The notes under the pieces: model-generated
What the model was told of the DNA's origin: nothing
Databases searched by the model: none
What the model saw: only the letters and a program-made list of their open reading frames with translations
Program-made: the position numbers and the translations under genes
Assembly: GCF_018446385.1 (NCBI RefSeq)
Contig: NC_056000.1
Location: 50,066,722-50,130,721, forward strand
Direction: 5' to 3'
Length of the DNA: 64,000 nt
Source of the DNA: Zingiber officinale
Lineage: Eukaryota > Streptophyta > Magnoliopsida > Zingiberales > Zingiberaceae
Shown: one piece after another, positions 14,473 through 45,698 of the stretch
Layout of the letters: the number at the start of each line of letters is the position of its first letter
Numbering within the stretch: the first letter of the stretch is position 1

Positions 14473-15167
14473 TATTGGGACCTTGATATCCGCTAGAGAG
14501 GAGGTGAATAACGTCTCACCCAAAACATTGCCTCCTATAATTGTTAGTACGCAACGGAATACAAAACAACCTAACAAATAGATAGAAAAAGCCAATGACA
14601 CATTGATTTAACGTGATTCGGAGATAAAGCTCCTACTCTACAGTTGTCCGTAACGTGGACGATCCCGATCTGTCGGTGGATGACTTCTCGAAAAACCTTC
14701 GGCTAGCTCACGTATCTCCTTGTGAGTGGAGAAACCTCACCACAACTCGCACAAGCATGCTTGGAATGCTAGGGCACTTGGAAGACTACTAATAGGGTTT
14801 AACCCCCTCTATTTCGTCAATTTTGCCCAAGCACCCCAAGCTCTATTAAATAGAGCTTGGGAGGAAAACACCAAGCCATTTTCCCGCCACCAGTCGACTA
14901 GTAAAAACACCAGTCGACTGGTCCTAAGTGGAATTTGTTGGTGCAATATTCCCTAGGTCAAGGTTGACCTGGTTAACCAAGCCTGAGTCTTGGTTTGGGT
15001 TTCGATGTTTGACAATATATTGGGTTTAGATGATATGGACAATACAGGTGCAGTTGTTCATTTGGGGAGATTGTTGATACAATTCCCGTTTGATCAAAGT
15101 TGACCAGTTAAGATTGTGAAGGAAAGTCAAGTAGGTCAAGGTTGACTGAATACTTGACTGAAAGTCT

Positions 15168-15425
15168 TGGTGAGTGAAGCCAGGCAGAAGGAAATCCTGG
15201 TGAGTGAAGCCAAGTAGAAAGAAGTCCTAGTGAGTGAAGCTAGGCAGGAGGAAAGTCCTAGTGAGTGAAGCTAGGCAAAAGGGAAAATCCTGGTGAGTGA
15301 AGCCAGGTGAAAGACCTAGTGAGTGAAGCTAGGCAGGAGGAAAATCCTGGTGAGTGAAGCCAGGTGAAAGACCTAGTGAGTGAAGCTAGGCAATTGGGAA
15401 AGTCCTGGTGAGTGAAGCCAGGCAG
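15168..15425 (+). repeat. Array of ~29-bp hairpin units in the R5 LTR
   Basis: Nine units of the form CCTGGtgagtgaagCCAGG or CCTAGtgagtgaagCTAGG, with variable spacers. The two arms change together in most units. The counterpart arrays are at 27836-28130 and, more diverged, 44255-44600. Confidence 0.85.
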
Positions 15426-15724
15426 GAGAAATCCAGAGGGATCAAGGTTGACCAGACATCTAGTGAGAGTCCAAGTAGGTCAAAGGGATTGACCGGATAC
15501 TTGGCACGAGGAAGAAAAGTCCAAGTAGGTCTTAGGGAGTGACCGGATACTTGGCAAGAAGAGAAAAGTCCAAGTGGGTCAAAGGGATTGACCAGACACT
15601 TGGTGAGAAAGTCCTAGCTGGTCAAGGGTGACCGGATGCTAGGTCTTATATACCAACAAGTCATGATTGACTAGATGTTGGTTTAGGGGGCTTTGGACTT
15701 AGTTTTGGGCAAAAACCAAGATCT

Positions 15725-16035
15725 GGATTGATCAGCCGATTGATCCAGCAGATTTGGATTGATCCGTGGATCGATCCAGTGACTGGATCGATCGGTGGAT
15801 CGATCGGAGATCCTGATCTATCGGTCGATCGATCCGGTGAGTCCTCGCGAAGAACCCCTCCGGATCGATCGGTGGATCGATTCAGAGGTCCCAATCGATC
15901 GCTGGATCGATTGGGACGCCTTACGCGATAAGCGCCGGATCGATCCGTGGATCGATCCGTGGTTCGATCGCGCGAAGGCGCTGGATCGATCCATGGATCG
16001 ATCCAGCCTCCCGATCGATTGGGAGCATTCCAATC
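15725..16035 (+). repeat. GATCGATC-armed palindrome cluster in the R5 LTR
   Basis: Repeated units such as CTGGATCGATCC..GGATCGATCCAG and CCAATCGATC..GATCGATTGG. Similar clusters occur at 19668-19845 (inside R5), 28435-28705 and 44975-45200. The apparent Ile-Asp-Arg-rich reading frames here are a by-product. Confidence 0.85.
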
Positions 16036-16535
16036 GATCGGGATCGACCGCTAGCGTCGATTTAAGCCGCAGCGTTCATTTCCTTCTTCCACGATGCAGC
16101 TCAGATCTTCACCAGCGACTCCACAGAGCTCTCCACGCCAGTTCTTGAAGTTCTTGGAGGTTCTTCCAAGTCAAGAGGCAGATCTATTGCAAGAGGAAGA
16201 AAGCTAAGGTTAGGGTTTTCTTGTACTCATTGTAAGCTTTGTGCTTGTATTTTGTATCCTTTCCCCTTCCTCTTGTAGTGTGAACTTGTAGGGCTTCTCC
16301 GCCTTCGGTAGTTACCGAAAAGGAGGGTTTTATTAGTGGAGGGTGCGTGAGTAGGTGTGGATCCTTGGACTAGTCACCTCTTGTGAGGTGGATACCAAGT
16401 AAACCAACCTTGTTAGCGTTGTGTGGTTTATTTCTTGTATTTCCGCTGCACATCTTTGAAGAAACAAGCAACGACGAGCACCTAGCGAGCGACTAGCTAT
16501 TCACCCCCCCTTAGCTACTTTTCGGTCCCAACAAG

Positions 16536-16547
16536 TGGTATCAGAGC
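16536..16547 (+). other. R5 primer-binding site
   Basis: TGGTATCAGAGC two bases after the LTR end, complementary to the 3' end of initiator-methionine tRNA. Confidence 0.88.
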
Positions 16548-16628
16548 AAGGCTGCTCTTCACCGGAATCATCGCCGGAAGGGTCAAGCATAACAAGAAGA
16601 GCTAGAGGGTGAAGAAGTTGAAGCAAAA

Positions 16629-18335
16629 TTGTCAAAGTCAAAAAAATTCAAAAGCTCAACTTCTTCAATGGAATTCCGAGATGGGCTCGGATTCGACACG
16701 AGGGTGGCTCCACCATACACTTCCACGAACTTCGATTCTTGGAAATCAAGAATCAAAAATTTTCTTATGATGGAGATAGAGCAATGGTTTGCTATTATGG
16801 AAGGCTTCAAGACTCTAACAAACTCAAAGGGCAAAGTTCTCAAGAGGAGCAAGTGGAGCAAAGAGCAAGTTCAAAGGTGCGAGGCCAATGACAAAGTGAC
16901 CAAGCTTTTGGTCAATTTATTGCCAAGCACCATCCTTTGCAAAATTGGAGAATTTGAAGATGCAAAGGAATTATGGAGTAAATTGGCCAAGCTTCATGAA
17001 GAGATCCCCTCCACTGTACAAGAGCAAGAAGAATCCAGAGAGGGTGACTCTTTGGAGCAAGGCCAAGAGGAGGACTCCGAGGTTGAGAGATGTTCAACCT
17101 CCGAAGAAGAAGTCCAAGAAGAAGCTTCATCTTTAAGGGAGTGCAATGAAGAGAACAAGGAGGGAGCATATTCCTTGTTCCATGTACAAGATGATGAAGC
17201 CTCCACCTCTAGGATTGAGGGGGAGTGTAGATCAATGAACCCGGAGCAAGAAGAGGCCTCCACATCTGGGTCAAGTGAAGAAGAAGAAGATGGTGCCACC
17301 TCCAAAATTCAAGAAATATCAAATGGAGGAGCAAGTGTCATCCCTACACAAGAAGGTATAAATGTTTCAATTAAAAATAAAAATCATATAATATGTTTTG
17401 AGTGTAGGGAAAGTGGGCACTACAAGAGCAAGTGTCCCAACTTGGCCAAGAAGAAGGGTCAAGTGACACAAAAGGGCAAGGAGAAGCCCAAGGAGACCGA
17501 AGTCAATGCCCCAAGGGGAAGAAGATGGTCAAGGCTCAAGGAGGCACTAGTCAAGGGGGAGCCTCCAAGGTAAAGAAGAAGGTAACATTTATTGAGCCTA
17601 CCCCTTTACGTTATGGTAAAAAAACATGATAGTTCTAATTTTTATCATTTTAATGCAATTTACCATAAGAATAGAAAGCATGAGGACATTAAGGAAAAGC
17701 TTGTGGCCCTACATGCCAAGACTACCCAACCTAAGGTTAGGAAGGTAGATAGACATTTGGGCAAGAACACTAAGGATAATAGATACAAGCCCAAGAATAA
17801 AAATGCTCATGGATCAAATGAAAAATCAAATACTAAGGACTTAGTGAGGGAAAGTCAAGTCTTGAGGTCAAGACTTGATAAATTAGAAAAGACCCTAAAA
17901 AGATTGGAAAATATCCTATTAGGGCAAAATGAGCATAACCTAGGTTTAGGGGTACAAAAGCCATCAAATGGCCATAGAGGTTTGGGATACAAAACCAAAG
18001 CAAAAAATGATGTGCCTAGTTATCATAGGGTTCCATATAGTTATGGAACAAACCCTAAGTCTAGAGGTCAAGTTAAGAATACAAGGGAAGATATCCCTAG
18101 AAGTATCTTTGCAACCAAAGTGACTAAGACTTTTAAGAAGTCTAAGAAAGTCACTAACAAGGTCACAAGGGAGGCTATCCCTAGAGTTGACCTAGAAAAT
18201 GTGACCAAGGCTTCTAAGAAGCCCAACAAGGTCACTAGGAAGGTATCTAGGGGAGTTATCCCTAGTGAGTACCTAAAGGATCCAAGGAGCACAAATAGGT
18301 GTTGGGTTTCTAGGAACATCTTCTCTACCCCATAG
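16629..18335 (+). mobile_element. R5 gag region
   Basis: The first part reads as a copia-type gag: an N-terminal 'APPYTSTNFDSWKSRIKNF' capsid start, a UBN2-like helical core (about residues 30-130), an acidic Glu/Ser-rich middle, and a CCHC zinc knuckle (CFECRESGHYKSKC) near residue 255. A second segment (from about 17592) is very Lys/Arg-rich with a short coiled coil and repeated KVTK-type units. No protease motif (DSGA) or pol follows. Function in the family: packaging of element RNA. The region has at least one break in frame between the two segments. Confidence 0.82.
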
Positions 18336-20662
18336 ATGGGTTAGAGAGTGTCAACTCCGATTAGAAGGGTAGTTAACCCAACTTAGAGGAAATTGACACT
18401 CAAGGAGCATTTTCAAGGTTTTTGTTAACCTTTGAAAATGAAATGGAATTATTATTTACTCCTTGAAAGAGTAAAATGTGTCTAATGGTGGAAAAATTGA
18501 TTTTATCTTAAAATGGCATAAATTGGGAAAACCTAGAGAAATACCAAGTTGAGATTTTGGTATTCTCTTAGAAATTTAAGGCAATCCGAACCTTGATTTA
18601 TGTGATTACTCTTGAAAAAAAAATGGAATATGCAAACATTTGAGGATATGCTTAATTTTTAAGTGGCATAAACAAATCAAGAGAAATATAAATGTTAATT
18701 TAGGTTTTGGCATTTCTTTGAAGCATTTAGGGCAATCTAGGTTTAACGTTTTAAGTTAAAACAAGTGGTATATTTTGAGTTAGCTAAGTGGTTAAGGATA
18801 CTTAACATGGAAATCTAGGTATATTTTATTTACGCTAAACCTTGCCATGATTGTTTGCCCATCATATGCCATGACATCATGTCTATTTTTGCATTCATGT
18901 TTTATTATGAAAAATCCAAAAATACCATGTCATGACATTCATACATCATGTAGTTATAGGATATTTTCTTTTGAAAATTATTTCCTTTTGATGTATGTCA
19001 TAACATAATCATGCATTAAGTTTAATTCCTTGTAATTAAGGACAAATGACATTTAACAACACTTATTAACAAGTGACATCCTAGATGGATGTCTAATATA
19101 TCTAAAATGACTAGATAGATATGCATGATCCCTAGAATAGGGCAAAACCAAATTTTACATCTCACAAAGACCTATAAGATGACTTGTATCTGTTTTGTCC
19201 ATAATAGATACAAGTGAGATGTTAGTATGATGAACAAAACTCAACATGTTGATTTAGTGCATTTCTTTGAGTTTTAAGTTCATCAAAACACATAGTTATG
19301 TGTTTTCCCATCATTGGGAAAGCTAATGTACAAGTCATGTGCATTAAGCCCAAGGAACATGGTGGGATATTGGTTTTGAAAATGTTTTTAAAATAATTTT
19401 GGAAAACCTTGGTGAAGGCTATCTTTTGATAGTAATCACCATTGAATAGTTAGACACAAACATGAAGAAAACACTAAAGTTTTTACAAGTTCTCAAGTTT
19501 GTGTCAATCTTTGAAAATATGATGTATTTTCATAGAAAACTATTTTTCCATGATAAATTATACCCTAAATAATGTCTAGACAAATTTATACGATTTTTGG
19601 AATTTTGTAGAATTTTCTAGGGGTTTCTGAAATTGGCTGAAATTGAATTTCAGCAATTTCAGGCCTCCAATCGATCAGTGGATCGATTGGAGTGCCTCAA
19701 TCGATCAGCCGATCGATTGGGAAGGCATTTCTCGCGAGCAAAAGCTTGCTGGATCGATTAGCCGATCGATCCAAGAAGACTGAATCGATCAGTGGATCGA
19801 TTCAGCAGGGTTCAATCGATTGGAACCCAACTCCAATCGATTGAAGATGCTGATTTTGGCTGGGAAAGCTTATTTTCAGCATTTTGAACCTATTTTAGTC
19901 TAGGTAACCATTCCAAACCCCTGAAAATACATTTGTATACATAAAATGGGTGTTTTCGTGTGGAAAACAAGGATGGATTGGTTAAGGAAGGCTAAGTTGA
20001 AGTTTAGGTTGAGCTTTGTTTCAAATTTTGAATATTTGAACCTCAAAACTTCTAAAATTGGGTTTCCTAAAGTTTTAGGGATTCCAAGTCATTGTTGGTG
20101 CAATGACAGAAGTTACCACCATATCTTTAGGGGGAGGGACTCTTTAAAGACATGAAAATTATTTTTCATGAACCTTGGAAGGTGTTTAACCTTCCGTTAA
20201 GAACATGCTCAAGGTTGAGCGTTTGAACTTTAATGGGGAGTGGATATCCTCATTGTTCAAGTGGTTTCAAGTGGATAATGCTCAAGGATGGACATTTGCC
20301 TACATTGGGGGAGAATGTAGGGTTAAGGATAATGAAGGGTATGGGATCTTCATTATCCTGTTGATTACAACGAGTGAAGTTGTGAACAACGATGAGCAAC
20401 TCTTCAGGGGGAGAGTTTTCAATAAGTGAATTTGTTGATGTGTGCCCAAAAATGGGGCATGGTTTGATGTGTGCCAATAGGGGGAGAATGAAAGGAAATA
20501 AGTTAGGATTTCATTACCTAGAGGGAGTTTGCTCTCTTAGGGGGAGAATGAAGGGCTTAACTTATGGATTCATATATTGGCATGAAGGGAGTTGAGGCTA
20601 TGGGAGTAGCCTAATTTCCTAACTTAACAAGAGGTATTGTCAAACATCAAAAAGGGGGAGAT
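18336..20662 (+). other. R5 non-coding interior with repeated purine tracts
   Basis: AT-rich, no coding signal. GATCGATT-type hairpins lie at 19668-19845. From 20130 on, six GGGGGAG-centred purine tracts (about 20133, 20307, 20406, 20479, 20538, 20653) precede the 3' LTR; the last (AAAGGGGGAGAT) is the polypurine tract that abuts it. Confidence 0.75.
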
Positions 20663-20778
20663 TGTTGGTGCAATATTCCCTAGGTCAAGGTTGACCTGGT
20701 TAACCAAGCCTGAGTCTTGGTTTGGGTTTCGATGTTTGACAATATATTAGTTTTAGATGATATGGACAATACAGGTGC
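20663..20778 (+). repeat. R5 3' LTR, left part
   Basis: TGTTGGTGCAATATTCC onward is nearly identical to 14936-15051; it is interrupted by R6 after GGTGC (20774-20778). Confidence 0.88.
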
Positions 20779-21592
20779 TGATCCTGTCCGAGTGCTGAAC
20801 CAATGGACGCTGGGCACGTGGCGCTCCCCGGCTGCTTATGTGGATCTTCGACTGGTAGCACGAAGCTCCGACAAACCTGCACAGAAGTTGGGCCGGGAAG
20901 GGGTTCCCGGCGGCGACCCTCCGACGCTCAAGTCAGGCAAGCAAGTAGTGACAAAGTGGCTCTCGAAATATTAGAACGTGTACCTCCGGCGAAGGATGAG
21001 GGCCTTTATATAGGGCAGCAGAGAAGCGAGTGCACACATATCGAGGTGTACACGTGTCCGTAGCCCATACCCCAATAAGGGCTTGTCAGTGAGCTTACCT
21101 GACCCATACTGCTACAGTCCAAGCATGTCCTCGATGGGACAGCGGAACCCCCTGTCACATGATTTGGAGTATGACCATATCACGAAGCATGCCAGCTGTC
21201 AGAAGATGTCCCTTGTCTTTTTTCCCCGAACTCCTGCCGGGCGTCCGACCGACCCACGTCCACCTTCCGTCCGACCGGTCATATATGATGATCCACTCGG
21301 GAAATTATCGGTAATGTGTTTTGTGGCGGCTGTTAGCAGTATGCTTCATGTCTTCGGCCGAGCGTGAGGTCCGCTCGGCCCTACGGTCTTGCTCAATGAG
21401 CGCCGGAACCCCGACTTCCATAGGGGTGCCTTTTGCCATCGGCTAAACACCGGGCGGCCGCCCGGTGGGTCAGACCCCTTTCTCCGGTCGGCCTAGTTGG
21501 TCCGACCTTCTTCGATGGACCGCCCGGCTCTTTGACTTCCACGTGGCGTTGACCCCTTACAACGAGGGTCCCCTGTTCGTACCGCCGGATCA
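20779..21592 (-). repeat. R6 left LTR (3' LTR in element sense)
   Basis: 814 bp, nearly identical to 26910-27722. A minus-strand TATATAAAG-type box lies at about 21005-21013. Confidence 0.9.
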
Positions 21593-21958
21593 CTTGCCTC
21601 CCCTTCAAGTCTACTCGAAGGAGGCGATTAGTCCGACTGACTAGACTGCGAATCTGGCCGGGTGGCTCCTTCGTGCTAGTATCCTCCGATCGGCCTACCG
21701 CAGAGATGGCCTTGAGTGAATCAACAGTGGCCTTCATCGGATCTCCTCGTAATCTGCGCCAATCTTCGACATTAAGGCTGAGCATGCGTTCATTAAATGC
21801 TTCGAATAGTCGAATGCCACGTGGCGCACTGTCATCATCGTACGGCGGCGGTGGCATGGTGCTTTGATGGGATCGAAGCGATTCGAAATGGACGGCACGA
21901 TGCACGCTTTGATTCCCGTGACCTGGATCCAACGGTGGAGGCCGCCCGGCCTCCACCC

Positions 21959-21965
21959 TATAAAT
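21959..21965 (+). promoter_or_regulatory. TATA box candidate for the R6 antisense ORF
   Basis: TATAAAT followed by a long TC-rich leader, about 270 bp before the antisense start codon at 22228. R7 has the same arrangement (TATAAA at 39598-39603). Confidence 0.5.
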
Positions 21966-22227
21966 TCTTCGTTTTCTTCTCTTTCTCTCATTTGCCTCCG
22001 TGATTTCGACCCCTGCCTCTTGCGCTTTGGAGCTCCGGCGATTCCGCTTCTGCTTTCCGACGACCTTCGGCGCCTCTTTTCCACTCCTTCTCATCGTAAG
22101 GCCATCTTTCCTTGTTTCCGGTGCTTTCCTTACATTCCTTTTCCATATTTTCATCCTCGGGATATCCTTTCGTTCGCTGTCTTCCTCCTTTTGCCTTTTT
22201 GCCTTTTCGATTCCTTCCGATCGGACC

Positions 22228-24481
22228 ATGGCTAGTTCTTCTCATCCGGAAGACCAGTTCCTTGGCCCATGGTACACCACCATGCAGTCCCGATTCGACC
22301 GGCGTGACTTTGATATCCTGACTGATAATTTTGATATTCTCGACGATTTTGAACTTCTTTTAGCCGGTCCCTCCGCTCGGCCACACAAGCCGCCGCGCGG
22401 AGCATTCTGTGTCTTCCGCGACCAGTTTACCGCCGGTCTGCGCTTCCCTGTACATCCTTTCATCATAGACGTTTGTAATTTTTTCGGTGTTCCGCTCGAC
22501 AGTCTAGTACCCAACACCTTTCGTCTCCTCTGTGGTGTTGTTGTTTTATTCAAGATTCACAACATCCCCCTCCGACCGGAGGTCTTTTTTTATTTTTATT
22601 ACCCCAAGCAAGCCGAGCCGGGCACCTTCATGTTCCAAGCTCGACCCGGCTTAGTCTTCTTCAACAAGCTACCTACTTCCAATAAACATTGGAAGGATTA
22701 TTTTTTCTACATCCGTATGCCCGATCAGGCTAACTTCCCGACCAAGTGGCAGGTCAGCTTGCCCCCCACTCCCGAGCTGAAGAAATTCAAGACCCGACCG
22801 GACTATCTCCATGCTGCAAATATACTAGCCGGTCTGCGACTTGACATCAATAAGCTTCTTCATGAAGGAGTAATGTACATCTTCGGTCTGAGTCCCATAC
22901 GGACTCCTCTTCCGACCGGCTTCGGTAAGAATTTTGCTTGGGCATTTGCTTTAATTGCTAACTGATTTCTTTTCTTTCCCTTGCAGCGGACATCGTCATG
23001 GATTCGGTGATGGCCGGCGTTTTGAAGAGAAAGGCGGCAGCGCTAGAAGCCGCGGCGGCCAGAGAAATGGAAGCGTTGGGTATCTAGCCGGTCGGATCCC
23101 ACGAAGGAGAGAGCGAGACTCAAGCCGAGTCGGTTGCTCAAGCTTCTCAACAAAACGTGGCCAGCGGAGCCCCCCCCCCCCCCCCCCCCCGGAGAACCAA
23201 CTGCCCCCGAGGAAGGTTCCGCTCGGGAGGAGGAGCAGCCTCTACAAAAGAGGCGCAGAGTGGAGACTCCCCTGCAGTCGGCTACCTCCGCGGTCCAACC
23301 ATCCGAGCGGGTCACTGCGACTGCTCGGGGCAAGGCGCTTGCTCGGGGCAAGGCGCCAGAGGCCGAAACCATTTCATCCGACCGGACGCCTTCTGACTGG
23401 GACGAGCCAGCTGCTCCAGTTGAGGCTACTCCGATCAGCACCCTTCCGCCCGCTCGTCACTCAGTCCAGCGCTCGACCATTCATTCCCAGTTTTCTGCGC
23501 CGGCTTCTGATCCCCTTCCGACCGCCGGTCGGACGACCCCCGGTCATGGCCGCACGATTCGGGTCACTCTTCATCTCCCGACTGAAGAGCTGCTGCCAGA
23601 GGCCGACCGACCAACCGTGCCCGAGAACACCATTACCTTGAAAGGGCCCCTAGCTGAGATGTGGGCCGATGCTCGGGCACGTACAGCGCTGATCCCCCTC
23701 CGAAACTTGGCCAATAGCCACATGCGGGAGGCCACGGGGGTAAGTTCGCTCTCTCCGAAGTTTTGTATGCATTCTTTCCGATCGGCCGCTAAAAATTCTA
23801 ATTTTCTTTTGCCAGAGATGGGTGGAGGAGATTGCAGTCTCCAACCGCCTAGCCATGGTGGATGAGGAGTTAAGGCAGCTGAAGGCGGCGTGCGGTCCAT
23901 CCGACTCTCAAGGCCCATCGTACTCCGAGCTGCAGAAGGAGCTTAAGAGGGCTCAGGATATGCTGGCGGCCGAGCAGAAGAAAACAACCGATCAGGCCCA
24001 CGCCTTGGCCGAGTCCGAGCGACAAGTCAAGTCGCTTGACACAAAATTAACCCTGGCCACCACTCGAAAAAATATGGCCATCTCCGATCTGGAGAAAAAG
24101 AACGTGGAGGCTCGGGGCCTGGAGCTGAAGGTAAAAGAGCTGATGGAGCAGCTCGACAGGGAGAAGGTGGGCCGCTCGGCCGACGCGGCTAAGATTCAGA
24201 ATCTGAACGAGGCCCTTACTGGCTCCCAGGCGGCGTTCAAAGAATATCAAGATGCCGAGCCGAGTCGGATCGCGGCCTTAAGACAGAGCTACATCCGCTC
24301 GCCTGAATTTTCGGAGAAAATATGCGAGCAGATGTATACAGCCTTCGACTTGGCTATGACCGCCACCACCACTTATTTGAAGTCTAAGGGTCTTCTCCCG
24401 GAGTCTACTGCTATTCCGGCCGGCGATCAGGTGGCGCTTCTGAATAACATTCCCAGGGACCTTTATAATTATATTGAGTAG
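22228..24481 (+). mobile_element. R6 antisense ORF region (Transposase_28-like plus coiled coil)
   Basis: The first block starts MASSSHPEDQ and contains 'RGAFCVFRDQFTAGLRFPVH', 'PNTFRLLCGVVVLF' and 'KHWKDYFFYIR', the pattern of the plant 'putative gypsy-type transposon' domain (Pfam Transposase_28). A Pro-rich, basic middle block follows, then a long heptad-type coiled coil (from about 23822) ending in a short conserved C-terminal module. The coding signal comes in three blocks with short non-coding gaps and is not one continuous frame. It is antisense to the element's LTRs. Function in the family is unknown; 'transposase' is only a database label. R7 carries a diverged, degraded counterpart. 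Confidence 0.75.
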
Positions 24482-24844
24482 CTTTCTGTAATTCGGCCAG
24501 TCGCCAGGATATCATCCTTTTTTGTAATTGGGCCGCTCGGCCTAAAGCTTTAACTTTAATGCAATGTTTTCCTTATATTTGTTGTCTTTTTACATAACCA
24601 AAATATGTGTTCATCCGCTCTCCCATTATCACCCCTCTGGTATTCGAAAGGGATTTTTACCAAGTGCCTGGCATTGCCCTGCCGTTTGGCTAAACATGTA
24701 ATACTTCGCCTACTTAATTTTCCGCTCTGATAACAGAGATCCTTCGCTATGTATCGAGCAAGTACTTTTTGGCTCTGGGCCGAGCGGAACGTAGAGACGA
24801 TTTAATGATATTGAGGGTGAGTTTCTGGGGCAATTGTATTCCCT

Positions 24845-25820
24845 TTATAGGCATTCCCCGCTCGGAGGGTTTATAGACGCCGGCTCGTCTCTCGATTTTT
24901 AACGTCGGAGCTCGACGGTCTTCCGCTCGGTCGTTTATAGATGCCGGCTCGTCTCTCGATATTTAACGTCGGAGCTCGACGGTCTTCCGCTCGGACGTTT
25001 ATAGACGCCGGCTCGTCTCTCGATTTTTAACGTCGGAGCTCGACGGTCTTCCGCTCGGACGTTTATAGACGCCGGCTCGTCTCTCGATATTTAACGTCGG
25101 AGCTCGACGGTCTTCCGCTCGGACGTTTATAGACGCCGGCTCGTCTCTCGATTTTTAACGTCGGAGCTCGACGGTCTTCCGCTCGGACGTTTATAGACGC
25201 TGGCTCGTCTCTCGATTTTTAACGTCGGAGCTCGACGGTCTTCCGCTCGGACGTTTATAGACGACGGCTCGTCTCTCGATATTTAACGTCGGAGCTCGAC
25301 GGTCTTCCGCTCGGACGTTTATAGACGCCGGCTCGTCTCTCGATATTTAACGTCGGAGCTCGACGGTCTTCCGCTCGGGCGTTTATAGACGCCGGCTCGT
25401 CTCTCGATATTTAACGTCGGAGCTCGACGGTCTTCCGCTCGGATGTTTATAGACGCCGGCTCGTCTCTCGATTTTTAATGTCGGAGCTCGACGGTCTTCC
25501 GCTCGGACGTTTATAGACGCCGGCTCGTCTCTCGATATTTAACGTCGGAGCTCGACGGTCTTCCGCTCGGACGTTTATAGACGCCGGCTCCTCTCTCGAT
25601 ATTTAACGTCGGAGCTCGACGGTCTTCCGCTCGGACGTTTATAGACGCCGGCTCGTCTCTCGATATTTAACGTCGGAGCTCGACGGTCTTCCGCTCGGAC
25701 GTTTATAGACGCCGGCTCGTCTCTCGATATTTAACGTCGGAGCTCGACGGTCTTCCGCTCGAACGTTTATAGACGCCGGCTCGTCTCTCGATATTTAACG
25801 TTGGAGCTCGACGGCCTTTA
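24845..25820 (+). repeat. 64-bp tandem array in R6
   Basis: About 15 copies of a 64-bp unit (GGTCTTCCGCTCGGACG, TTTATAGACGCCGGCTCGTC, TCTCGATATTTAACGTCGGA, GCTCGAC). The spacing is constant, and copies differ at a few positions (ATATTT/ATTTTT, G/A). Confidence 0.95.
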
Positions 25821-25949
25821 AGGCTACTTTTAACACAGTCGATCGGCGAAGATATTTGTCATCTTTATAATTTTGCTTCCTGCATTACAAGGACATAGGC
25901 AACCGAAATGTATATAAATTTACATTTAGCGCACCTTTCACCCAGTTTG

Positions 25950-26520
25950 GATAACATACTCCTGGCCGAACGGCCCGGGATCTTCTTCGTCAAGCGCTTG
26001 GCTCGGATAACATACTCCCGGCCGAACGGCTCGGGGTCTTCTTTGTCGAGCGCTTGCCGGGGTCTTCTTTGTCGAGCGCTTGGCTCGAATATTATACCTC
26101 CGGTCGAACGGCGCGGGGCCTTCGTTATCGAGCGCTTGGCTCGGATATTATACCTCCGGCCGAACGGCTCGGGGCCTTCGTTATCGAGCGCTTGGCTCGG
26201 ATATTATACCTCCGGCCGAACGGCTCGGGGCCTTCTTTATCGAGCGCTTGGCTCGGATATTATACCTCGGGCCGAACGGCTCAGGGCCTTCGTTATCGAG
26301 CGCTTGGCTCAGATATTATACCTCCGACCGAACGGCTCGGGGCCTTCTTTATCGAGCGCTTGGCTCGGATATTATACCTCTGGCCGAACGGCTCGGGGCC
26401 TTCGTTATCGAGTGCTTGGCTCGGATATTATACCTCCGGCCGAACGGCTCGGGGCCTTCGTTATCGAGCGCTTGGCTCGGATATTATACCTCCGGCCGAA
26501 CGGCTCGGGGCCTTCGTTCG
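25950..26520 (+). repeat. 56-bp tandem array in R6
   Basis: About 10 copies of a 56-bp unit built from GGCTCGGATATTATACCTCC, GGCCGAACGGCTCGGGGCCT and TCGTTATCGAGCGCTT; the first copies are shorter or divergent. The unit has no stop in any plus frame, so the array gives three long overlapping but spurious reading frames. Confidence 0.93.
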
Positions 26521-26529
26521 GAAAATTAC

Positions 26530-26880
26530 GATGAATTCTATGCCCGAAAGAAACTATATCTGAAAGACTAACCTGCCGATCAGCATAAGATCTGACTCAA
26601 TTTCTCAACTCCCGAATACCCGTGGAGTGAGGTGGATACAATGTACTCGTCGAAATTTATCAAGGCCAGGAGGATGGCGAAACTTCCCGGTCGGTCCTCC
26701 ATGGCCGCTCGGCCCCCCAGAGGTGGAGGCGGCCTGCTGCGTTATCCTTTTACTTGAGCCTTCTGCTCCTGTTGCTCCACGAGCCTACCTACTCTTGCCT
26801 CTATCAGAGCGTCGAGTTTCTCCACGGAGAGCATCACCATGTGTGGTCGTCCAGCTTCATCCATCAACTCCGATCGGATG
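26530..26880 (-). mobile_element. R6 gag start (sense strand)
   Basis: After the primer site the minus strand reads a short acidic/amphipathic start (about 'MDEAGRPHMVMLSVEKLDAL') like the beginning of Tat-lineage gag. It then stops being recognisable; the rest of gag and all of pol are absent. Confidence 0.55.
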
Positions 26881-26909
26881 CAGGAGCGTTCCCACAGACG
26901 ACGCCAAAT

Positions 26910-27722
26910 TGATCCTGTCCGAGTGCTGAACCAACGGACGCTGGGCACGTGGCGCTCCCCGGCTGCTGATGTGGATCTTCGACTGGTAGCACGAAGCTCC
27001 GGCGAACCTGCACAGAAGTCGGGCCGGGAAGGGGTTCCCGGCGGCGACCCTCCGACGCTCAAGTCAGGCAAGCAAGTAGTGACAAAGTGGCTCTCGAAAT
27101 ATTAGAACGTGTACCTCCGGCGAAGGATGAGGGCCTTTATATAGGGCAGCAGAGAAGCGAGTGCACACATATCGAGGTGTACACGTGTCCGTAGCCCATA
27201 CCCCAGTAAGGGCTTGTCAGTGAGCTTACCTGACCCATACTGCTACAGTCCAAGCATGTCCTTGATGGGACAGCGGAACCCCCTGTCACATGATTTGGAG
27301 TATGACCATATCACGAAGCATGCCAGCTGTCAGAAGATGTCCCTTGTCTTTTTTCCCCGAACTCCTGTCGGGCGTCCGACCGGCCCACGTCCACCTTCCG
27401 TCCGACCGGTCATATATGATGGTCCACTCGGGAAATTATCGGTAATGTGTTTTGTGGCGACTGTTAGCAGTATACTTCATGTCTTCGGCCGAGCGTGAGG
27501 TCCGCTCGGCCCTACGGTCTTGCTCAATGAGCGCCGGAACCCCGACTTCCATAGGGGTGCCTTTTGCCATCGGCTAAACACCGGGCGACCGCCCGGTGGG
27601 CCAGACCCCTTTCTCCGGTCGGCCTAGTTGGTCCGACCTTCTTCGATGGACCGCCCGGCTCTTTGACTTCCACGTGGCGTTGACCCTTTACAACGAGGGT
27701 CCCTGTTCTTACCGCCAGATCA
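26910..27722 (-). repeat. R6 right LTR (5' LTR in element sense)
   Basis: 813 bp, starts TGATCC, ends GATCA, with the primer-binding site just inside. It pairs with 20779-21592. Confidence 0.9.
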
Positions 27723-27727
27723 GGTGC

Positions 27728-29208
27728 AGTTGTTCATTTGGGGAGATTGTTGATACAATTCCCGTTTGGTCAAAGTTGACCAGTTAAGATTGTGAAGTAA
27801 AGTCAAGTAGGTCAAGGTTGACTGAATACTTGACTGAAAGTCCTGGTGAGTGAAGCCAGGCAGAAGGAAGTCCTGGTGAGTGAAGCCAGGCAGAAGGAAG
27901 TCCTGGTGAGTGAAGCTAGGCAGAAGGAAGTCCTGGTGAGTGAAGCTAGGCAGGAGGAAAGTCCTAGTGAGTGAAGCTAGGCAGAAGGGAAAATCTTGGT
28001 GAGTGAAGCCAGGTGAAAGACCTAGTGAGTGAAGCTAGGCAGGAGGAAAATCCTGGTGAGTGAAGCCAGGTGAAAGACCTAGTGAGTGAAGCTAGGCAAT
28101 TGGGAAAGTCCTGGTGAGTGAAGCCAGGCAGGAGAAATCCAGAGGGGTCAAGGTTGACCAGACATCTAGTCAGAGTCCAAGTAGGTCAAAGGAATTGACC
28201 GGATACTTGGCACGAGGAAGAAAAGTCCAAGTAGGTCTTAGGGAGTGACCGGATACTTGGCAAGAAGAGAAAAGTCCAAGTGGGTCAAAGGGATTGACCA
28301 GACACTTGGTGAGAAAGTCCTAGCTGGTCAAGGGTGACCGGATGCTAGGTCTTATGTACCAACAAGTCATGATTGACTAGATGTTGGTTTAGGGGACTTT
28401 GGACTTGGTTTTGGGCAAAAACCAAGATCTGGATTGATCAGCCGATTGATCCAGCAGATTTGGATTGATCCGTGGATCGATCCAGCAGATCTGGATCGAT
28501 CGGCCGATTGATCCGGTGAGTCCCCGCGAACAGAACCCCTCTGGATCGATCGGTGGATCGATCCAGAGGTCCCAATCAATCAGTGGATCGATTGGGACGC
28601 TGCTGCTTCGTGTGATAAGCGCTGGATCGATCCGTGGATCGATCCAGGCGTTTTTCCAGAGCACAGAGGCGCTCTGGATCGATCCGTGGATCGATTCGAG
28701 CTCCAGCGATCGATGGCTGCGTAGAGAACTTCACCGATTCATCTCATTTCCTTCATTGCTTCCACGACAGAGCTCAGATATTCACCAGCGACTCCACAGA
28801 GCTCTCCACGCCAGTTCTTGAAGTTCTTGGAGGTTCTTCCAAGTCAAGAGGCGGATCTATTGCAAGAGGAAGAAAGCTAGGGTTAGGGTTTTCTTGTACT
28901 CATTGTAAGCTTTGTGCTTGTATTTTGTATCCTTTCCCCTTCCTCTTGTAGTGTGAACTTGTAGGGCTTCTCCGCCTTCGGTAGTTACCGAAAAGGAGGG
29001 TTTTATTAGTGGAGGGTGCGTGAGTAGGTGTGGATCCTTGGACTAGTCACCTCTTGTGAGGTGGATACCAAGTAAACCAACCTTGTTAGTGTTGTGTGGT
29101 TTGTTTCTTGTATTTCCGCTGCACATCTTTGAAGAAACAAGCAACGACGAGTACCTAGCGAGCGACTAGCTATTCACCCCCCCCTCTAGCTACTTTTCGG
29201 TCCCAACA
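27728..29208 (+). repeat. R5 3' LTR, right part
   Basis: Resumes with AGTTGTTCATTTGGGG as at 15053 (after the second GGTGC, 27723-27727) and runs to CCCAACA. All three hairpin tiers are present; unit numbers and the GATCGATC cluster differ somewhat from the 5' LTR. Confidence 0.88.
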
Positions 29209-43214: not shown

Positions 43215-43930
43215 GGGTTTATTGCCACCGCTCGGCTGTTGAAGATGCAGACTTGGGTTTAAAGTTGTCACTCGACTGTTGACGAAGATCGGGGTTTAAA
43301 GTCGTTGCTCGACTATTAATGAAGATCGGGGTTTAAAGTCGTCGCTCGACTGTTGACGAAGACCGGGGTTTAAAGTCTCCGCTCGACTATTGACAAAGAC
43401 TGGGGTTTAAAGTCTCCACTCGACTGTTGACGAAGATCGAGGTTTAAAGTCACCACTCGCCGCTCGATTGTTAATGAAGATCGGGGTTTAAAGTTGCTAT
43501 TCGACTGTTGACGAAGACCGGGGTTTAAAGTCGTCGCTCAACTATTGATGAAGACAGGAGTTTAAAGTCGCCGCTCGACTGTTGACGAAGACAGAGGTTT
43601 AAAGTCGTCGCTCGACTATTGACGAAGATCGGGGTTTAAAGTCGCCGCTCGACTGTTGACGAAGATAGGGGTTTAAAGTCACCACTTGATTGTTGACGAA
43701 GACCGGAACTTAAAGTCGCAGCTTGACTGTTGACGAAGATAATGTTTTAAAGCTGCCACTCGACTATTGATGAAGATGGGGGGTTTAAAGTCGTCACTCG
43801 ACTATTGATGAAGATGGAGGGTTTAAAGTCATCACTCAACTATTGATTGGCGTAGATAAGGGTTTATAGTCGTCGCTCGACTGTTGATTTGCGTAGACAA
43901 GGGTTTATAGTCGCCGCTCGACTTTTAATT
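43215..43930 (+). repeat. 37-bp tandem array in R7
   Basis: About 19 degenerate copies of a unit like GACGAAGATCGGGGTTTAAA-GTCGCCGCTCGACTGTT. It follows the antisense ORF, the same place the arrays hold in R6, but the unit is different; 'TTTATAG/TTTAAAG' and 'CGCTCG' words are shared. Confidence 0.88.
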
Positions 43931-44039
43931 TGGTCGGTTGGCACAAGAGTCTGGAACACTTGGGATTTTTATTCATTCTCTTCCTGCTTCCATAAGACAT
44001 ACACTTATACAATTACGTCTAGATTTATTTGTTGGTATA

Positions 44040-45698
44040 ATATCCCTAGGTCAAGGTTGACCTGATTGAGTAAGATTGAGTTGGCTCAAACTTGAGTCTT
44101 GATGTTTGGATTTCAATGTTTGCCAATACATGAAGATTGCAGATGCAATCGTTTGATTGGGAAGATTGTTGATACAATTCTCCTCTGGTCAAGGATTGAC
44201 CAGTTAGATGTGAAGAAGAGTCAAGTAGGTCAAAGAGTTGACCGGATATTTGACTGGGAAAACCCTAACTAGAGGTTAGGCAAAGGCAAGTCCTTGTGAG
44301 TAAAGCCAGACAGTTGAAAAAATCCTGGTGAGTGAAGTCAGATGAAAGACCTAGTGAGTGAATCTAGGCAATTGGGAAATCATGGTGAGTGAAACCAGGT
44401 GAAAGGCCTAATGAGTGAAGCTAGGTAGGTGAAAGTCCCGGTGAGTGAAGCCGGACAGTGAAAAAATCCTAGTGAGTGAAGCTAGGTGAAAACCCTAGTG
44501 AGTGAAGTTAGATGAAAAGCCCAGGTGAGTGAAACCAGGCAGATGGAAAGTCCTGGTGAATGAAACTAGGTAGATAAAAAGACCTGGTGAGTAAAGTCAG
44601 ACACGTGGAAATCTAGGTGGTCAAGATTGACCCAACACCTAGTGTTGGGAAGCCCAAGTAGGTCAAAGGATTGCCTAGATACTTGGCACGAGGAAATCTA
44701 GATAGGTCAAGGGTGACCAGATATCTGGTGGAAGTCTAAGTGGGTCATGGAGGATCGGACATTTGACACAAGACGGTAAGTCCAAATGGTCAAGGTTGAC
44801 CAGACACTTGGCATGAGAAGAAAAGTCCAAGTGGGTCAAAGGGTTGACCGGACACTTGGCAAAGAAGTCCCGGCAGGTCAAGGTTGATTGGATGTTAGGC
44901 ATGAGGAGTTCCAACAGGTCACAGTTGATCGGATGTTGGATTTGAGGATCTTAAACTTGGTTTAAGCAAGTCAAAAGGAAGTCAATCAATCAACCGATCG
45001 ATTGGGAAGCGAAATCGCGACCACAGAAGCTCTCCCAATCGATCGGTCGATCGATTGGGGGGATGGAATTCACGCGAGTTACGATAAACGTTGAATCGAT
45101 CAGTCGATCGATTCAGGTCTTATTCTAGATAGCGCAGAGGCGCTCTGAATCGATCAGTCGATCGATTCAAACCTCCCCAATCGACTGGTCAATCGATTGG
45201 GTTGTGACCGTTGCGAATGAAGCGTCGGGTTTAAAGTCGTCTTCCTTGCAATGATTATATATCTCTTCCTCTCCACTTCTCTCAATCACTCTCACAGGTT
45301 CACGCTAGTTTCTTGAAGCTTCTTGAAGCAAAGTATTGCTGCACTTCCAGGATCAAGAGGCATTCCACACAAGAAGAAGAAGCTTGGGTTTCAGTTGTAT
45401 GTTGTAAATCTTGTAAGATTTTACTTGTATTTGTTTCCCTTTTCTTCTTGCTGTATTGTGAGCATTATGCAAGCCTTCTCCGCCTTCGGAAGTTACCGTA
45501 AAGGAATGTTTTCATAGTGGATGAGTGAGTGAGGGTCGGATCCTTGGATTAATAACCTTTTCTTGAGGTGGATACCAGGTAAATCCTAGCGTTAATGTTG
45601 CTTGAGTGTTTTCCACTGCATATCATCATCACGAAGCAAGCAAACGGCACACGACGAGCTATTCACCTCCCCCCTGTAGCTACAAATTGACCCTAACA
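44040..45698 (+). repeat. R10: solo LTR related to the R5 LTR
   Basis: 1,659 bp from TGTTGGTATAATATCC to GACCCTAACA with an exact duplication TTATT (44035-44039, 45699-45703). It has the same three hairpin tiers as R5 in the same order (44255-44600, 44600-44960, 44975-45200), but sequence divergence is large, so it is a sister family or much older. Confidence 0.85.

Follow-up and report, generated by a model that had tools for sequence, protein, structure and literature searches.

Introduction

Why do the two arms of a short hairpin, repeated many times within the LTR of a ginger retrotransposon, change together, and is it the pairing itself that is being kept? The question arises from a stretch of 64,000 nucleotides of Zingiber officinale (NC_056000.1, positions 50,066,722 to 50,130,721; hereafter the window), in which an earlier note had pointed to nine hairpin units with a common loop and matching changes in their arms, a pattern that it took to be unusual for a plain minisatellite and to be the one expected when pairing is kept, either as RNA or as a protein-binding palindrome. 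Palindromic repeat boxes in LTRs were described before in Sireviruses, with their role left open in that description (Bousios et al., 2010, PMC2829016). According to the same source, such RM boxes occur in 13 of 21 elements, with 8 to 32 units each, and mostly start 200-400 bp into the LTR. A later Sirevirus study (Bousios et al., 2016, Genome Res., as presented in PMC10760457) tied the predicted structure of LTR palindromes to small RNAs. The pattern can thus not be called unusual for its class, palindromic LTR boxes being an already described Sirevirus feature (PMC2829016): hairpin-forming LTR repeats are known in this group, and the covariation of their arms is the variant met here. Searches of open-licence papers brought up none on covariation in such LTR arrays, and priority is not strongly claimed.

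The hairpin array and its relatives in the window

The array lies on the plus strand within a 5' LTR with TGTTGG...CCAACA ends (14936..16533), and its first loop is found 235 bp into the LTR. It consists of nine units (15166..15422, hereafter type A), each with a 5-bp stem and spaced 26-32 nt apart. As claimed earlier, the loop TGAGTGAAG is present in 9/9 units and the arms come in two forms, CCTGG/CCAGG in units 5, 7 and 9 and CCTAG/CTAGG in units 3, 4, 6 and 8, which gives seven perfect 5-bp stems out of nine (three of the former kind and four of the latter). The few imperfect units mentioned in the earlier note are unit 1 (CTTGG/CCAGG, with a U-G wobble) and unit 2 (CCTGG/CCAAG, with a C-A mismatch). 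Long and short linkers alternate among the units at 15251-15422, with a period of 57. Additionally, the stem-loop junction reads GGTGAGT or AGTGAGT at 15169-15175 and in every further unit (nine repeats), which resembles the 5' splice-site consensus.

Two further type A arrays occur on the plus strand of the window. One, with ten units, is found in the 3' LTR belonging to this element (27842..28128), and two of its units are CCTGG/CTAGG. The other (44292..44601) is a diverged array with more broken stems, located in a different LTR that starts at 44030. A CCCGG arm, which the earlier note had ascribed to a relative, occurs in this third array, at 44437; its stem there is CCCGG/CCGGA, with 4/5 pairs. 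Directly upstream of this LTR lies a 37-bp tandem array of ~18 copies (43255-43923).

The host element

Judging by its Sirevirus hallmarks, the array's home is a predicted LTR of a Sirevirus-type copia retrotransposon. The PBS TGGTATCAGAGC (16536, plus strand) directly follows the 5' LTR. At the other end, the terminal polypurine tract (PPT) AGGGGGAG (20653..20660, plus strand) starts 10 bp ahead of the first part of the 3' LTR (20663..20778, plus strand) and is followed by an AT/TG junction, as in Sireviruses; further PPT copies at 20129, 20406, 20479 and 20539 bring their number to five within 20129-20660. Likewise in agreement with Sireviruses, an 18-nt inverted repeat (17/18 matched) has its left arm at 20635..20652 on the plus strand and its right arm inside the 3' LTR, at 20727-20744; its score is 31, whereas 500 shuffles reached 25 at most. 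A run of seven C at 16504, with the LTR ending at 16533, agrees, in its presence near the LTR end, with the polyC-rich 3'-end signal of Sireviruses. The 3' LTR is split by a nested LTR element (~20779 to 27720), after which it resumes at ~27721 and ends, by estimate, at ~29208; the nested element carries two tandem arrays, one of 64-bp repeats (15 copies, 24858-25818) and the other of 56-bp repeats (~8 copies, 26058-26518).

Between the LTRs, a gag-like open frame (16629..17573, plus strand) shows a weak match to copia-type gag (PF14223, E 7.5e-4, which falls below the family's curated cut-off) and a CCHC zinc knuckle spotted by eye. Since this weak gag match is all that was found, with no pol domain in the searched pieces of this copy, the copy looks non-autonomous. 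Rfam gave zero matches at gathering scores within 14800-20800.

The same landmarks were followed in 30 close relatives of this LTR (set S3, L001-L030) and 30 relatives of the array at 44 kb (set S4, L031-L060). In S3, the PPT junction lies upstream of the array in 10/30 loci, nine of these ten having 4-5 PPT copies (pattern AGGGGGA[GA]), and the PBS lies downstream in 11/30. In S4, the PBS lies downstream in 5/30 loci, and the same pattern revealed a PPT junction upstream of the array in 0/30, a result to be expected as well from solo LTRs or from a junction that has diverged. A check for the conserved TATA box that Sireviruses have in mid-LTR, past the RM/CpG cluster, returned TTTAAG at 16061, just after the CpG-rich cluster described below, which is missing in the 3' LTR. 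TATAWA occurs once in this LTR and not at all in three S3 loci inspected; over 62 loci, its matches gather 750-850 nt past the array, as they do in the S4 loci inspected.

Covariation of the two arms

Exact matches were counted throughout the 3.09 Gb assembly (211 contigs), which appears to include both haplotypes, so that homologous copies may be counted twice. At the second pair from the loop, the G-C form (CCTGG/CCAGG) has 110,714 instances and the A-T form (CCTAG/CTAGG) 99,394, as compared with 7,846 for the mixed G/T form (CCTGG/CTAGG) and 4,783 for the mixed A/C form (CCTAG/CCAGG); a reversed-pattern control gave 0 in each of the four counts. Matched arms therefore make up 210,108 of 222,737 instances (94.3%), against 50.1% for independent arms, with a cross-product ratio of ~293. 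These counts uphold the claim that both arms usually change together.

To tell pairing apart from descent, 120 loci were sampled, with 1,113 units inside arrays. Sixty of the loci, of ~3.5 kb, came from two similarity searches scoring 40 of 4,336 and 40 of 14,348 candidates; the other 60 are stretches of 400-700 bases from contig C1 that surround listed units (37 perfect, 23 mismatched), and this stem-based choice of some units may inflate or deflate the sample ratios while leaving the genome-wide counts unaffected. In the sample, the odds ratio between the second left-arm base and its pairing partner is 37.6. When all 25 left-right position pairs are compared (1,062 of the 1,113 units retained after an identity filter), two exceed all the rest: partner pairs 2 and 3 have odds ratios of 38 and 121 (23 and 89 on distinct 33-mers), and the other 23 range from 0.20 to 6.4. 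Partner pairs 1, 4 and 5 (2.2, 1.8 and 1.8) fall within the non-partner background. Thus, covariation of the arms was confirmed at the second and third pairs from the loop and is absent at the first, fourth and fifth, i.e., at three of the five pairs. Genome-wide double mutants at pair 4 (1,227 vs. an additive expectation of ~124) and pair 1 (374 vs. ~123) were considered as further covariation and set aside, because they lack a non-partner control and the sample has no partner excess at these pairs.

The loop TGAGTGAAG is near-constant in the four sample sets (231/297, 142/175, 274/294 and 262/347 units), and the boundary of the stem is sharp, the three positions beyond it pairing in 1-10% of units. 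What the ginger retrotransposon carries is a real and very numerous covarying hairpin array.

Two further hairpin types in the same LTR

The array is flanked by hairpins of a second build (type B), in which an outer stem of 7 bp is joined to the core GGTCA/TGACC, with a bulge of 3 nt on the 3' side. On the plus strand, these are found at 15126..15158 (outer stem TCAAGTA/TACTTGA, 3-nt bulge, core GGTCA/TGACT), 15433..15463 (CCAGAGG/CATCTAG, imperfect with 5/7 pairs), 15471..15504 (CCAAGTA/TACTTGG), 15521..15554 (CCAAGTA/TACTTGG, with an altered core, read by eye), 15570..15603 (CCAAGTG/CACTTGG), 15613..15643 (CCTAGCT/TGCTAGG, 6/7) and 15652..15682 (ACCAACA/TGTTGGT, core AGTCA/TGACT). Among 752 distinct candidates, 42.8% have at least 6/7 outer pairs, compared with 13.9% (maximum 16.9%) when the right arms are re-dealt 500 times and with at most 2.8% when the bulge length is set to 0, 1, 2 or 4. 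Perfect stems seen in at least five loci include CCAAGTA/TACTTGG, CCAAGTG/CACTTGG, TCAAGTA/TACTTGA, CCAGATG/CATCTGG, CCAGGTG/CACCTGG and TCCAACA/TGTTGGA, and the imperfect stems CCAGATG/CATCTAG and CCAGAGG/CATCTAG also reach at least five loci. The mutual-information matrix is noisy (with unfiltered arms, the highest value falls on the partner in 4/8 rows and 5/8 columns; with distinct arm pairs it does so in 3/8 rows), and the case for type B therefore rests on the re-dealing and bulge-length controls. Per-pair percentages, which come from a pairing-filtered set, were not used as evidence. A two-strand scan gave a weaker contrast (at least 7/8 pairs in 33% vs. 23%, maximum 26%) because the core is itself palindromic. 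Cores of the form GGTCAA/TTGACC look like inverted W-boxes.

Farther into the LTR, an unstranded cluster of GATCGATC-NNNN-GATCGATC palindromes (type C) extends over 15720..16060, and CpG observed/expected reaches 1.60 across 15700-16070. In 712 distinct candidates, counted on both strands so that a single hairpin can enter twice, complementarity runs past GATCGATC: the next pair alternates between G-C (290) and C-G (244) and is Watson-Crick in 78%, with 42 G-G or C-C combinations and other mismatches making up the remainder. All five outer pairs are matched in 6.7% of the candidates vs. 1.9% after re-dealing (maximum 3.8% in 300). Of three CGG..CCG matches in the LTR, two lie in type C; this CGG-CCG core signature of Sirevirus RM boxes is absent from the type A and B stretches.

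When and in which molecule pairing could be kept

The reading that we tentatively favor, at a little less than even confidence, is that the array is part of a palindrome-rich LTR control region whose hairpins are kept for pairing as the element cycles, likely in its sense RNA. The control region is a chain of short hairpins of types A, B and C, in which complementarity at several pairs persists while the stem sequence varies and the loop stays nearly fixed.

Differences between LTR mates bear on the timing. In 13 of 16 LTR or array pairs, with mates assigned by place and similarity and some of them uncertain, 510 stem pairs are unchanged, 37 have changed on one side and 4 on both, and 29 fall in gaps. 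Three of the four two-sided changes come from L066/L067, two arrays ~3 kb apart with 11.8% divergence that may not be mates. The three pairs left out because of gaps or divergence comprise L077/L078, with 2 one-sided changes and 1 two-sided change, and two others with none. Some of the one-sided changes are exchanges between a wobble and a full pair, to which the comparison assigns no direction. Between lineages, in contrast, both arms differ together. Since the differences between mates are mostly one-sided, pairing seems to be maintained during the element's cycle rather than after insertion.

The molecule is harder to name. Genome-wide, G-U exceeds A-C at pair 1, the innermost (8,123:1,673), at pair 2 (7,846:4,783, or 1.64) and at pair 4 (4,083:3,364, or 1.21); at the outermost pair, the order is reversed in the sample (41:78). 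In type B, the ratio is 90:48 in the core and about even in the outer stem (filtered set). The baseline of C/T vs. A/G differences over ten LTR pairs is 1.07 or 1.33, depending on normalisation, and thus, on the sense strand in type A, it is surpassed at pair 1 and by a small margin at pair 2, but at no other pair. Wobble excess as proof of RNA was dropped once this baseline was known. The region 15030-15670 folds better than 20 shuffles on either strand, with a z-score that is stronger on the minus strand (-9.3) than on the plus strand (-5.2). Taken together, wobble and folding are weak evidence for sense RNA, and with the wobble evidence mixed, no choice is supported between the two forms, RNA and protein-binding palindrome, that the earlier note had named. 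A near-fixed, asymmetric loop on a variable stem is the main ground on which a single-strand hairpin may be preferred to a DNA dyad, and a hairpin in sense RNA is weakly ranked ahead of template-switch repair, a DNA dyad and a founder effect.

If so, the element would need pairing as it cycles, most likely because its sense transcripts, which ordinarily include U3 of the 3' LTR, fold into these hairpins. A putative protein could read the loop plus the stem, with packaging, RNA stability or host small-RNA recognition as candidate roles, and the element's own Gag, seemingly with a zinc knuckle, is one example of a candidate RNA-binding reader. The more specific proposal, that the LTR palindromes of this ginger Sirevirus are a sense-RNA hairpin array under pairing selection, in which a fixed loop on a free stem is read by an RNA-binding protein and thus serves as a multiplied RNA recognition signal and not as a promoter box, is somewhat unlikely.

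Alternative explanations

Hairpin-templated copying would produce matched arms without any selection on pairing: template switching during reverse transcription or replication, a process described for RNA genes (PMC8794818), would rewrite one arm from the other. Such copying would make stems that pair perfectly in many different sequences, would not call for G-U intermediates and would favor neither strand, in agreement with the mixed wobble data. We rate it as unlikely. Inverted loops are scarce (19 of 1,113 units are in the minority orientation at their locus, some of them perhaps in separate arrays), and two-sided changes between LTR mates are rare, although copying confined to reverse transcription would fit the latter.

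A DNA-level dyad or cis-regulatory box, i.e., paired half-sites for a dimeric factor, was considered for the Sirevirus boxes, which the ginger LTR resembles in the start of its loops, copy number and CpG-rich cluster (PMC2829016). The commonest type B core, GGTCA/TGACC (77 of 239 candidates, picked for a near match to that very core), would also suit such a box. Whereas a dyad predicts fixed half-sites, it is the asymmetric loop that is near-fixed in type A and the arms that covary, and the CpG observed/expected of 0 in the type A array argues against a DNA-level box as well. We regard this explanation as improbable, and more so than templated copying.

Finally, two or three ready-made unit types could have been duplicated, leaving the arms linked by descent alone. 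The shuffling of two such types had been named in the earlier note as the finding that would undo its proposal, and it was tested by shuffles and stratification. True unit classes do exist: two forms account for most units, spacings are 26 and 30-32 nt, and the odds ratio between flank markers L7 and R7 is 147, in our reading because both mark the long vs. short linkers of a higher-order repeat. The arm form is also linked to flank marker L6 (odds ratio ~6.8), and the right arm of S3 units shares 0.374 bits with flank position R10, nearly matching the 0.437 bits that it shares with its own partner. The arm forms, however, cross the linker classes, with odds ratios of 0.9 and 0.9 between the left-arm second base and L7 and R7, and of 0.9 and 0.8 between its partner in the right arm and R6 and R7. 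When flanks of 4, 8 and 14 nt are held identical, the Mantel-Haenszel arm odds ratio remains 28.2, 24.7 and 22.2, respectively; stratified by 4-nt flanks, the four sets give 64.8, 14.7, 136.3 and 11.6 separately, and one flank class of 38 units gives just 5.1. Unit-type shuffling keeps some standing because long exact flanks mostly bear one form: in the 44 identical-14-nt-flank classes with at least 5 units, 464 of 499 G-C or A-T units bear the dominant form of their class, and both forms are present in just 34 of 402 identical-flank classes. As the arm link survives constant flanks, ready-made types alone do not explain the pairing, and type B shows several paired stem types. The proposal that pairing is kept is thereby strengthened, the arms being linked across linker classes and within identical 14-nt flanks and a second hairpin type covarying, and the data are not easily explained by shuffling; descent alone is the least probable of the explanations considered.

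Minimum-spanning-tree tests were discarded in both types. For type A, the comparison of common with rare stems is uninformative, both single-step intermediates being common (common types show 1 both-side and 25 one-side changes, whereas the rare types show 28 and 234); for type B, a Fisher value of 3e-9 was obtained, but wrong-register objects affect it. In type A, the two arms may have changed together independently no more than a few times.

Comparison with known systems

With one short stem counted more than 200,000 times in the same assembly, the question of whether Sirevirus palindromes are promoter boxes, silencing targets or RNA signals can be put to an evolutionary test. If the trait retained is pairing, a search aimed at one invariant binding motif would look for the wrong thing.

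The closest known counterparts are the Sirevirus RM boxes as described by Bousios et al. (2010, PMC2829016), which the ginger LTR matches in its palindromic units, their start position in the LTR, the CpG-rich cluster and the PPT and junction features. In some elements of that study, RMs have extra copies in the linker, a likeness shared with ginger: a GATCGATC/CAATCGATTG hairpin cluster at 19501-20000, in the internal region ahead of the 3' LTR (44 inverted-repeat seeds vs. 2.9 expected), recalls these linker repeat boxes. At the level of single motifs, the ginger type B core is similar to the RMs of Osr8, Osr10 and Vitis (CGGTC..GACCG), and type C is similar to the RM of Tnd-1 (ACAATCGATTGT) (PMC2829016). 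In the same description, most RMs are palindromes that are well conserved inside one element (66.5-100% identity); they have short centres and, save for Tnd-1, a CGG-CCG core. The ginger types A and B, in contrast, show no such core, carry either a longer loop or a bulge, and retain complementarity as their stems vary in sequence.

Similarly, the Sirevirus LTRs of Bousios et al. (2016), as presented in PMC10760457, bear clusters of palindromes with strong predicted structure. The motif there is CACCGGACNNNGTCCGGTG, and the link to small RNAs belongs to that study, whereas the ginger array is known from its sequence alone. RNA stems maintained by template switching (PMC8794818) likewise combine compensatory stem changes with conserved loops; those stems, as described there, belong to RNA genes, whereas in ginger the same combination is found in the LTR arrays of a retrotransposon.
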